From: Enterobacterales bacterium
Lineage (GTDB): Bacteria > Pseudomonadota > Gammaproteobacteria > Enterobacterales > Kangiellaceae
NCBI GenBank assembly: GCA_030949565.1
Contig: JAUZSK010000079.1
Location: forward strand, 44,735-108,734
Direction: 5' to 3'
Length of the DNA: 64,000 nt
A program made the translations under genes and the position numbers. Positions 24,522-63,351 of this stretch are shown here, piece after piece; the stretch's first letter is position 1, and each line of letters opens with the position of its first letter. The notes beneath the pieces were generated by a model. That model was not told the origin of the DNA and did no database searches. It saw only the letters and a list, made by a program, of their open reading frames with translations.

Positions 24522-27500
24522 ATGACTCACAGTCACACCGACTCTCTAAGCATCTATAAAGCCAAACATAAAATCCGTATGGTGACGGCAGCCTCTCTAT
24601 TTGATGGACATGACGCTGCAATCAATATTATGCGTAGAATCATTCAAGCCACAGGTTGCGAGGTCATCCATCTAGGGCACAACCGCTCAGTACAAGAGGT
24701 GGTCAACTGCGCCATTCAAGAAGATGTACAAGCCATCGCGATGACTTCCTATCAGGGCGGTCATGTTGAATATTTAAAATATATGGTGGATTTATTAGCC
24801 GAGGCTCATTGCAGCCATATTCAGGTGTTTGCTGGCGGTGGTGGCGTCATACTGCCTACAGAAATCAAAGAACTTGAAGCTTACGGTGTGGCGCGAATTT
24901 TTACCCCCGATGACGGTCGTACAATGGGCTTGCAAGGCATGATCAATGATCTGGTTAAACGCTCCGACTTTGCTACCGGTGACTTAACTGAAAAACGCAA
25001 TAATATAGCCGCAGTGCCCCAGGTTCATCAACAACGCGAAATTGGCAAACTTATTTCAGCGGCAGAAAATTTCTCCGAAGCTTCAAAAAAAAAACTTACT
25101 TGATCAGGTGCGTACAAAAGCGGCTCAATCAAAAGTTCCTGTTTTGGGGATCACGGGCACTGGAGGCGCTGGAAAATCATCACTAGTGGATGAGTTAGTC
25201 AGACGTTTTTTGATGGATTTTGAAGATAAAAATATCGCTATTATTTCGGTTGATCCTTCTAAACGAAAAAACCGGCGGTGCCCTGCTGGGTGATCGTATT
25301 CGTATGAATGCCATCGATGATCCACGCGTGTATATGCGCTCTCTGGCAACCCGTCAATCGAACTTAGCGCTTAGCCCACACATTCATGATGCGGTGGATA
25401 TCGTTAAAGCGGCAGGTTTTGATTTAGTGATTTTGGAAACCTCGGGCATTGGACAGTCAGATACCGAAATTGAAGAGCACTCGGATATCGCGATGTATGT
25501 TATGACTCCAGAATACGGCGCGGCGACTCAACTTGAAAAAATCGATATGCTAGACTTTGCCGATTTAATCGCCATCAATAAATTTGATAAACGCGGTGCA
25601 CAGGATGCTCTGCGAGATGTGCAAAAACAATATCAACGCAATCATACACGCTTTGACCAAGCTACCAGCGAAATGCCGGTCTATGGCACCATCGCCAGTC
25701 TCTTTAATGATCCAGGCACCAATCAGCTGTATTTTAGTCTCATGAAAATCATTGAGAAAAAAACCAATGGCGCGCTTCAATCAAAACAGCCGCTAGTCAC
25801 TAACCTCACTGAACAACCCTTTATCATTCCACCGAAAAGAACCCGTTATCTCGCTGAAATTGCGGAAAATAATCGCGCCTATGATGAGCGAGCGCAACAA
25901 CAAGCAGAGCAAGCTCAAAAGCTGCAAGCGGTTAAGCAAACGCAACAGTCTTTAATAGAATATGATAATGAAGCAAACAATCGGGATCTCCAACAAAAAT
26001 TACAGCAGCTAGAAAAAAATATTGAACTTAAACTCGACCGAGAAAATAGTCTGTTGCTAGAAAACTGGGAAAAAGAATGCAGTGCCTACCAACAAGAATT
26101 TTTCGAATATCAGGTCAGAGATAAAAGCATTAAGGTTGAAACACATACCCTCTCACTTTCGGGGCAAAAAATACCTAAAATATCGGTACCAAAATATCAA
26201 GGCTGGGGCGACCGTTTAAAATGGAAACTGCAAGAAAATTTTCCAGGGCAATTCCCTTACACCGCAGGCGTTTTTCCGTTTAAGCGTGAAGGCGAAGATC
26301 CGACTCGCATGTTTGCCGGTGAAGGTGGTCCAGAACGCACTAACCGCCGTTTTCATTATGTCAGTAAGGGTATGCCAGCTGCCAGACTTTCTACAGCCTT
26401 TGATTCGGTCACATTGTACGGTGATGATCCCGATCTGAGACCGGATATTTTTGGTAAAATTGGAAATGCAGGCGTTTCTATTTGTTGTCTGGATGATGCT
26501 AAAAAACTCTATTCTGGCTTTCGATTGACCCAACCCACCACTTCGGTCTCCATGACCATCAATGGTCCAGCGCCTATTTTGGTCGGTTTTTTTATGAATG
26601 CCGCTATCGATCAGGAATGTGAAATATATATTAAACAGCAAGCATTAGAAGAGTCGGTTAGAAAAAAAATTACGACAATTTATGCAAAAAAGCAATTACC
26701 TCTACCCTGCTACCAAGGTGAAATACCCGAAGGCCATGATGGACTCGGATTAATGCTCTTGGGGATCACCGGTGATCAAGTATTAGACAAAGACATCTAT
26801 GAAAAAATAAAATATGACACCATTCAAAAAGTGCGCGGGACCGTCCAAGCGGATATTTTGAAAGAAGATCAAGCGCAAAACACCTGTATTTTTTCCACCG
26901 AATTCGCGTTGCGTTTAATGGGTGATGTGCAGCAATATTTTATCGAGAAAAATATTCGTAATTTTTACTCCGTTTCAATTTCTGGCTACCATATCGCTGA
27001 AGCCGGTGCTAATCCTATTTCTCAGTTAGCCTTCACCTTGTCCAATGGTTTTACCTTTGTTGAATATTATTTAGCGCGCGGTATGGACATCAATAAATTT
27101 GCACCTAATTTTAGTTTCTTTTTCTCCAATGGTGTTGACCCAGAATATGCAGTCATCGGACGCGTTGCGCGTAGAATTTGGGCCAAAGCGATGAAGCATA
27201 AATACAAGGCGAATTCTCGCGCACAAATGCTTAAATACCATATTCAAACATCGGGGCGTTCTTTGCATGCGCAGGAAATAGATTTCAACGACATCCGCAC
27301 CACGCTGCAAGCGCTGTATGCCATTTACGATAATTGCAATTCTTTACACACCAATGCCTATGATGAAGCCATCACCACCCCAACCGAAGCCTCGGTCAGA
27401 CGCGCCATGGCAATCCAATTAATTATTAATCGTGAGTTAGGGCTCAATAAAAATCAAAATCCGCTACAAGGTTCTTTTATTATTGAAGAGCTCACGGATT

Positions 27501-27934
27501 TAGTAGAAGAAGCCATTTTAATCGAGTTTGAACGCATCAGTGAGCGCGGTGGCGTACTTGGCGCAATGGAGACCATGTATCAACGCTCCAAGATTCAAGA
27601 AGAATCCATGCACTATGAAACCCTTAAACATACTGGCGAATACCCGATCATCGGCGTGAATACCTTCTTATCCAGTGAAGGCTCTCCCACCGTTATTCCA
27701 GAAGAAGTCATCCGTTCCACCGATGAAGAAAAGAAATATCAAATTGACATGTTAGCCCGTTTAAATAAAGCTAATAGTGATCAGATTGACACTCAAATCG
27801 AAGCTATCAAAAAAGCCGCATTAGACAATGAAAATATCTTTGAAGTGTTAATGGAAGCGACTAAATATTGCTCGCTGGGTAAAATTTCACACACCTTGTA
27901 TCAAGTCGGTGGACAATATCGCAGAAATATGTAG
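24522..27934 (+). CDS. icmF: fused isobutyryl-CoA mutase IcmF (B12-binding / MeaB-like GTPase / mutase), two apparent frameshifts
   Basis: B12-binding [14 protein letters not shown]...AFAGGGG-like segment; P-loop [35 protein letters not shown]; mutase domain [28 protein letters not shown]-type motif. Frame breaks at the A-run near 25090 and an A6 run near 25268. Confidence 0.93.
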
Positions 27935-28055: not shown

Positions 28056-29237
28056 CTAGAGAACTTTTATATTATCGACGTGAATCACTTCATTGACTCG
28101 CCCTTGCTTATCCGAAAATAAGTAGTAATAGCCACCCGTATCTGCTCGTATAATTTTTGGCTCTTGGCTAAAGTCTACGCGACCACCCGTAATTTTCACA
28201 ATTGAATTCTTTGAACGCCAAATCACTCCGCGTATTTTTCCGTAGTTATGGACTTCCATTCCAAGCATTCGATGCATGCTACTTTGATTTTTCACCACAC
28301 CTTGTCTACCAATATTGTGGCAATAATTTAAATCCGATTTAGGGCAAAGATTCATATCCATCCAATTAGGTTCTTGATCATAGATAGCTTTATGAGCTTT
28401 TTTAGTTTTATTATTCCAACTTTGTAAGCGAACTTCTATTAATTCCATCACTTGATTGAAGGACCGATTATTGACCTCTTGATCAGAGAGCTTAACTCGA
28501 TCCATTGTTCCCCCAAGTTTCATTCGAATCTTACTAAAAACCTTCTGCTTAAAAACTGCCGGTAACTGCTCAATCACAATTGATTCAATTTCCTTTCGCG
28601 ATAAAACATAAAATCGGGTTGCTGGATTGCTTTTAATGGTTTGTAATAATTCCTTTAGTTTTGACTTAAGACCACTGGTTGAAATCAGTTGATGACTGAC
28701 AACTTTGGGGTGTTCGAAGGTTCGGTATCTAAGATCGATTGATTGGGCGTCTAGCAGCTTAGCGATCCCGTCCCATTCAATTGGAAAGGTAAACCTGTAT
28801 ATTTTAATCGATTCACCAGTATTGCCTTGGGCGACCAATAAACTAGGTTGCGTTGTCGCTCGTTCATGCGGCAATTTGTTTTTCTTATTATCTACAGCCA
28901 AATAACTAAAATCAAAACCTTCAATATTTATGCTGGTTCGAAGTTCACCTAGCCATCGCCCAAGTTGTCCATTTTTTGATATTTCTAGCCAAAAGGATAG
29001 CCGAACATTATCTTGCTCTGTAACAATAAGCCAACCATTACCGACCAGCTCTTTTTTCTCATCACTTTTATAGATAGGCTGAGTGAGCAGTTGCCACTTA
29101 CTTGGAGCAATTTCTGCTTTTCCTTGTGGAATATAGACTAAACAAAAGACTAGCAATAATGCATTAAACAGAATGATTAGAGGATGATTTGAATTCAAGC
29201 CTAACTTTATTATTATTTTCATTATTGTTTTATTCAA
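28056..29237 (-). CDS. hypothetical exported protein, 393 aa
   Basis: Single long ORF with N-terminal hydrophobic segment; no family recognised with confidence. Confidence 0.6.
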   Translation of the reverse strand: MNKTIMKIIIKLGLNSNHPLIILFNALLLVFCLVYIPQGKAEIAPSKWQLLTQPIYKSDEKKELVGNGWLIVTEQDNVRLSFWLEISKNGQLGRWLGELRTSINIEGFDFSYLAVDNKKNKLPHERATTQPSLLVAQGNTGESIKIYRFTFPIEWDGIAKLLDAQSIDLRYRTFEHPKVVSHQLISTSGLKSKLKELLQTIKSNPATRFYVLSRKEIESIVIEQLPAVFKQKVFSKIRMKLGGTMDRVKLSDQEVNNRSFNQVMELIEVRLQSWNNKTKKAHKAIYDQEPNWMDMNLCPKSDLNYCHNIGRQGVVKNQSSMHRMLGMEVHNYGKIRGVIWRSKNSIVKITGGRVDFSQEPKIIRADTGGYYYLFSDKQGRVNEVIHVDNIKVL

Positions 29238-29313: not shown

Positions 29314-29421
29314 TGCACCATTTTGGTGCATCATTTGATTAAATTTGATAATTTGCACCATTTTGGTGCATTTCTGCCACTTTTGACAAAGTTCTCCTAA
29401 ATTTTGCACCAAAATGGTGCA
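29314..29421. promoter_or_regulatory. three NtrC-type palindromes (TGCACCATTTTGGTGCA x2, TGCACCAAAATGGTGCA)
   Basis: Perfect 17-bp palindromic sites at 29314-29330, 29354-29370 and 29405-29421; matches the remembered NtrC consensus TGCACYA-N3-TGGTGCA. Confidence 0.75.
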
Positions 29422-29535: not shown

Positions 29536-29580
29536 TTGACTTTTTACCCAATAACACCATATATTAGACACAACTAATAT
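29536..29580 (+). promoter_or_regulatory. putative sigma-70 promoter with overlapping palindrome ATATTAG-N6-CTAATAT
   Basis: TTGACT (29536-29541), 18-nt spacer, TATATT (29560-29565); perfect 7-bp inverted repeat 29561-29567/29574-29580. Confidence 0.55.
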
Positions 29581-29710
29581 AGTGTCCCTAACAAAGTAAG
29601 GGCTAATATAAATAGTATCCAAATTATGCAACCATGTGACTAGCCTAAAAAATACTTGTTTTAGGTTATAGAAACGACGGGCATCACAATTGAAACTTTA
29701 AAGGCTACTT

Positions 29711-63248: not shown

Positions 63249-63289
63249 TTGATTATTGACCTAACTGGCCTTATATTAGAAGTATCTAA
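63249..63289 (+). promoter_or_regulatory. putative sigma-70 promoter of SQR gene with ATATTAG-N6-CTAA element
   Basis: TTGATT (63249-63254), 17-nt spacer, TATATT (63272-63277); ATATTAG 63273-63279, CTAA 63286-63289. Confidence 0.5.
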
Positions 63290-63351
63290 ACAATCCGGTA
63301 TCCAATGTATTTGCCTGGTTTTCTAATTCAATGTAATAAAGGAGAATTAAA

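Follow-up and report, generated by a model that had tools for sequence, protein, structure and literature searches.

The perfect inverted repeat ATATTAG-ACACAA-CTAATAT on the promoter of a DUF4395-rhodanese gene is very probably the operator of this genome's single BigR/YgaV/HlyU-type ArsR repressor, which would be released by persulfide and would control the rhodanese gene together with other loci. The repeat lies in the window, the whole stretch of 64,000 nucleotides from contig JAUZSK010000079.1 that was analyzed here, and the features discussed below are listed in Table 1. The original prediction of a sulfide/persulfide regulon under an ArsR-family repressor of the BigR/SqrR/YgaV type, acting at a palindrome over the promoter, is supported by the clustering of sites and by their conservation. 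The sites, their positions and conservation, as well as the family and the cysteines of the regulator, were read directly from the genomes.

Table 1. Features of the rhodanese and SQR loci in the window
Feature	Position	Strand	Basis and remarks
-35 box TTGACT, rhodanese promoter	29536..29541	+	sequence; 5/6 match; 18-bp spacer to TATATT
-10 box TATATT, rhodanese promoter	29560..29565	+	sequence; left operator arm overlaps
Proposed operator palindrome ATATTAG-ACACAA-CTAATAT	29561..29580	.	candidate site of BigR/YgaV/HlyU-type ArsR repressor
Isolated half-site CTAATAT	29603..29609	+	2.5 bits as part of 20-mer
DUF4395-rhodanese gene, 257 aa	29711..30484	+	Pfam PF14340 + PF00581; translation
Predicted SQR promoter TTGATT-17-TATATT	63249..63277	+	sequence
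Weak operator-like ATATTAG-AAGTAT-CTAAACA	63273..63292	.	8.4 bits, below all training sites
SQR-like gene, cut by contig end	63352..63999	+	Pyr_redox_2

A palindrome overlaps the promoter of the DUF4395-rhodanese gene

Both arms of the inverted repeat and its position on the -10 box TATATT were confirmed at the predicted coordinates. The overlap of -10 box and operator arm (T plus AYATT) is present at many other sites too. No other exact ATATTAG-N6-CTAATAT occurs in the window, and a scoring matrix derived from other genomes (see below) ranks the 29561 site first in the window; with just 17.9 bits, owing to its atypical spacer, the site is near the bottom of the trained range. The palindrome is located 130 bp before the start of the DUF4395-rhodanese gene. 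According to its translation, the protein consists of a membrane-type DUF4395 region followed by a C-terminal rhodanese domain with the active-site loop CASGMR. By analogy to ygaVP, it would act as a sulfur-transfer enzyme of the membrane; its CxxGxR loop is intact.

A third CTAATAT downstream, which had been counted with the repeat, is present as a string, but it is a lone half-site that lacks a partner arm. Given its score (Table 1), it is probably no additional operator, and we rejected it as such.

Three perfect GCACCA-N3-TGGTGC palindromes were also observed between an uncharacterised ORF on the minus strand (28056-29237) and the rhodanese gene (window positions 29315-29329, 29355-29369 and 29406-29420). 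The trio (29315-29420) resembles NtrC enhancer sites; no clear sigma-54 promoter was seen. An ORF at window positions 25220-27934 combines MeaB-type GTPase and methylmalonyl-CoA-mutase domains in one protein and adjoins a gene for a B12-binding domain (24522-25103), an IcmF-like fusion arrangement.

The palindrome is conserved at the orthologous promoter

The sole close ortholog of the DUF4395-rhodanese gene was found in a sister species (G003, 65% identity). Its promoter, TTGACA-17-TACATT, carries ACATTAG-CGAATA-CTAATGT, in which both arms are changed in concert. Since the changes relative to the window site correspond between the two arms and the spacers bear no relation to each other, we conclude that the palindrome, and not merely the -10 box, was kept. 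In the one ortholog available, conservation hence extends past the -10 box, a comparison that had been proposed with the original prediction.

These observations bear on the reading that an AT-rich -10 region became palindromic by accident. Matches of seven letters are frequent in AT-rich DNA, and the -10 hexamer forms part of the left arm. The right arm, however, is not covered by the -10 box, and it has been conserved while changing in concert with its partner, which refutes chance for the 29561 site. Together with the enrichment over a reversed control in the genome and across the order, and with gene neighbours that are non-random, this makes an accidental palindrome extremely improbable.

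The motif is enriched at sulfur and repressor genes

Motif counts were obtained by pattern searches and compared with a reversed control pattern. The 3.58-Mb genome contains three exact copies of the full palindrome (about 0.06 expected from base composition). One is the window site, the second is located 51 bp before a persulfide-dioxygenase-like gene, and the third about 117 bp before a DUF3149 gene (42 aa). Allowing 2 mismatches, we detected 53 matches in the genome versus 24 for the reversed control. Five one-mismatch matches sharing one near-identical sequence (ACATTCGCCAGNTCTAATAT) were all discounted; the copy examined lies within a transposase-like gene.

In 37 genomes, the degenerate pattern AYATTAG-N6-CTAATRT was found exactly at 28 sites, compared to 4 for the reversed control (12 versus 0 in the genus alone), and at one mismatch the six genomes of the genus yielded 83 matches versus 23. 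Across the order, exact sites are present in 65 of 296 genomes. About half of the 24 newly fetched order-wide loci (L280-L303) have the site before genes for this group's ArsR, a dioxygenase, a CoA-disulfide-reductase-like flavoprotein, an MMPL exporter or the aminotransferase of the repressor operon, while several others fall within genes and look like chance. The genome-wide search suggested at the outset therefore did reveal clustering at sulfur and ArsR genes (persulfide dioxygenase, ArsR).

The genome encodes one ArsR protein with the BigR/SqrR/YgaV cysteine pair

Only one ArsR protein of the genome has the cysteine pair of BigR, SqrR and YgaV (G000:C53:2687-3031, minus strand); the gene of the other clear ArsR stands at the head of an arsenic-type cluster. 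The protein has an ArsR-type winged helix (PF01022, 57 bits), and its nearest relatives in the PDB are HlyU (closest, 6e-24), SqrR, NolR, YgaV and BigR. It missed the cut-off of the NCBIfam BigR equivalog NF040642 (86 vs 155 bits). The two conserved cysteines, located in RLxIxC and in a C-terminal YC, align with the cysteines of HlyU and SqrR, and both are present in 26 of 27 relatives.

A near copy of the palindrome, ATATGAG-N6-CTAATGT, stands directly before the start of the repressor gene. In the members of the genus and family examined, the site is found 14-61 bp ahead of the repressor start, as for an autoregulatory operator that overlaps the repressor's own promoter. Among relatives with readable upstream regions, the repressor gene is preceded in 16 of 26 by a site with at most 2 mismatches; some of these sites have the right arm CTAAATT. 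In the genus with 2.3-2.9-Mb genomes, no site was seen directly before the repressor; the one in that cluster precedes a gene for a class-V aminotransferase farther upstream. Apart from the missed BigR cut-off, the low score of the 29561 site and the choice of training sites (see below), two findings count against the proposed assignment of the operator to this repressor: the repressor gene is located on another contig than the window, and no repressor gene turned up in G003, which has the orthologous operator and whose assembly is 75% complete.

The motif matches the promoter region reported to be bound by E. coli YgaV

For scoring, we used a symmetric matrix (20.5 bits) of 32 sites in other genomes, which were picked by their position before relevant genes and by motif likeness, and which include the G003 ortholog. 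The training sites span 16.8-26.7 bits. When 5 kb around E. coli ygaV were scored, the two top matches were both located in the ygaV promoter, 16 bp apart (AATTTAG-AAAATA-CTTAAAT, 13.1 bits, and AGTTTAG-AGTTTA-CTTAATT, 7.3 bits). The YgaV footprint is reported to lie close to the start site, which is 28 bp ahead of the first ygaV codon, and the YgaV box was likened to the ATTC-N8-GAAT of SqrR (PMC9774250). The motif lies within this promoter region reported as YgaV-bound. No matrix match was detected in the E. coli katG region, a reported weak YgaV binder (best score -0.9), in line with the published finding that this region has no recognisable YgaV box (PMC9774250). The motif was absent from rhizobial bigR-blh promoters on plasmids and from Cupriavidus, and it is therefore not universal in the repressor family.

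Paired sites 15-16 bp apart were also found before ArsR genes of Pantoea, Sphingobium, G307 and G264 (loci L286 and L287 for G307 and G264; also L204, L276 and L273). Such frequent tandem operators before this ArsR group suggest cooperative binding.

Further putative members of the regulon

The dioxygenase-like gene behind the second exact site encodes a protein of 288 aa with a metallo-beta-lactamase fold and is followed by a gene for a TauE-type exporter. Compared with the Blh model NF040641, the protein scored 381 bits (cut-off 625) and matched positions 144-423, which is the dioxygenase part only and not the full length. Many genomes have sites ahead of dioxygenase genes, for the most part no farther away than about 170 bp. 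Near matches were detected before a SoxC-like gene (TIGR04555, 529 bits, cut-off 420), before genes for a sulfur transporter (PF04143) and a cytochrome c, before ccoN, and in the region separating adk from a thioredoxin-like gene. The sites at cytochrome c, adk, the transporter, DUF3149 and ccoN are conserved. A literature search for DUF4395 in combination with rhodanese, and for DUF3149, yielded no papers.

The SoxC-like gene (L189 4098-5419, G000:C39) is distributed over three frames close to its 5' end, reflecting either decay or assembly errors. Adenylate kinase (adk) is preceded by sites in three species of the genus (L219, L171, L174). Sites on the transketolase side recur in G001, G003 and G064 (L244, L260, L301; two families), and G001 and G003 both have an operator-like site ahead of a gene of the transhydrogenase/alanine-dehydrogenase type. 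Transketolase and transhydrogenase could possibly be NADPH-supply members of the regulon.

The extension past sulfur, to ccoN, adk, transketolase and transhydrogenase, would also fit a real operator of some other factor (FNR-, CRP- or other ArsR-like) acting near sulfur and respiration genes, with the BigR-like gene as merely one of its targets. We consider this improbable: the palindrome is unlike an FNR or CRP box, the most consistent feature is the site immediately before the repressor's own gene, seen in the relatives counted above and also order-wide, and in E. coli the matrix picks out the ygaV promoter, which was footprinted by YgaV itself (PMC9774250).

The SQR gene as a partner of the rhodanese gene

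The original prediction linked the rhodanese gene and the SQR gene through a shared operator. The string ATATTAG-AAGTAT-CTAA at 63273-63289 was confirmed on its TTGATT-17-TATATT promoter; the left arm and CTAA are retained, and the right end is lost (3 mismatches). The best NCBIfam match of the SQR-like protein is the type III SQR model, far under its cut-off. Some points speak for one operator joining both genes: by the independent matrix, the 63273 site is second in the window and overlaps the -10 box, matches of this kind are expected about 0.023 times per 300 bp, and a deviating right arm, CTAAATT, also occurs at some repressor-gene sites. Nevertheless, we regard the link as unlikely. The score (Table 1) falls far below the minimum of 16.8 bits among trained sites, and a second, divergent SQR-like gene of the same genome lacks a site. 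Within 3 mismatches, the window has six matches with 5.5 expected, and by that count the SQR site is therefore at chance level. The sole close SQR ortholog (G008, 66% identity) also has no site; this gene (L269) is located just downstream of a gene for a PAS/sigma-54-activator/Fis-type regulator, a FisR-like arrangement.

SQR is thus not supported as a regulon member, as judged by an operator of trained strength that is conserved at the ortholog. In G001, a one-mismatch site lies 206 bp before a divergent SQR-like gene, so control of SQR by the repressor is possible in the genus. Instead of the two loci originally envisaged, the repressor's putative regulon comprises many: bigR, pdo-TauE, the soxC-like gene, the sulfur transporter, cytochrome c, adk, ccoN and DUF3149.

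Proposed mechanism and significance

In this family, the reduced dimer represses, and persulfide bridges the cysteines so that the DNA is released (PMC10509353, PMC12423496). For this organism, we infer binding, the persulfide signal and the direction of control. The reduced repressor dimer would occupy ATTAG-N6-CTAAT over the -10 box and start point and thereby block RNA polymerase. When sulfide oxidation causes persulfides to rise, a polysulfide bridge would form between the two conserved cysteines, and the repressor would leave the DNA. The DUF4395-rhodanese gene would then be switched on, together with the repressor gene, the persulfide dioxygenase and the TauE-type sulfite exporter. The sulfur transporter, the SoxC-like dehydrogenase and cytochrome c would be co-induced, and probably also ccoN, adk and DUF3149.

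A guess about one promoter has hereby become the prediction of an operator, with targets throughout the genome, for sulfide/persulfide sensors of a widespread family. The binding code of this family is poorly defined, as the boxes published for YgaV and SqrR are loosely defined, and we propose precise candidate sites for E. coli YgaV. Functional leads emerge for the genes that share the operator, among them those of DUF4395-rhodanese, DUF3149 and MMPL-type exporters. A broader reading seems to us evenly balanced between right and wrong: ATTAG-N6-CTAAT, along with the YgaV-type TTTAG-N6-CTTAA and often in tandem 15-16 bp apart, might be the code by which gammaproteobacterial persulfide sensors of the YgaV/HlyU type generally recognise their operators. 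In this lineage it would connect the sensing of persulfide with respiratory and energy genes (those of cbb3 oxidase, cytochrome c and adenylate kinase) and also with DUF4395-rhodanese, DUF3149 and MMPL exporters, unstudied membrane proteins that would be new components of sulfide tolerance.

Comparison with known systems

This kind of system is already known, while the definition of the operator and several of the members appear to be new within the searchable literature. The closest solved relative of the repressor, Vibrio cholerae HlyU, is likewise a persulfide-responsive dithiol ArsR (PMC10509353), but its hlyA operator scores just 5.9 bits with our matrix. As in the BigR-Blh systems of Xylella and Agrobacterium, a BigR-type repressor would control a persulfide dioxygenase and YeeE/TauE transporters. 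In contrast to BigR-Blh, the dioxygenase lacks the sulfur-transferase half of Blh and the repressor stays under the BigR equivalog cut-off; the plasmid-borne rhizobial bigR-blh promoters differ further in lacking ATTAG-N6-CTAAT. SqrR of Rhodobacter capsulatus belongs to the same family, and its operator (ATTC-N8-GAAT) has the same geometry, as ATTAG-N6-CTAAT can be written ATTA-N8-TAAT. The letters are not the same, with one base per half-site being different (C to A). E. coli YgaV and its ygaVP operon share with the present system a dithiol ArsR repressor, an AT-rich palindrome near its own start site and a membrane rhodanese (YgaP) as a target. Unlike in ygaVP, which combines rhodanese with a YgaP-type TM, the rhodanese is encoded here at a separate locus and consists of a DUF4395 region and rhodanese; the arms of its operator read ATATTAG, and the putative regulon is more extensive.
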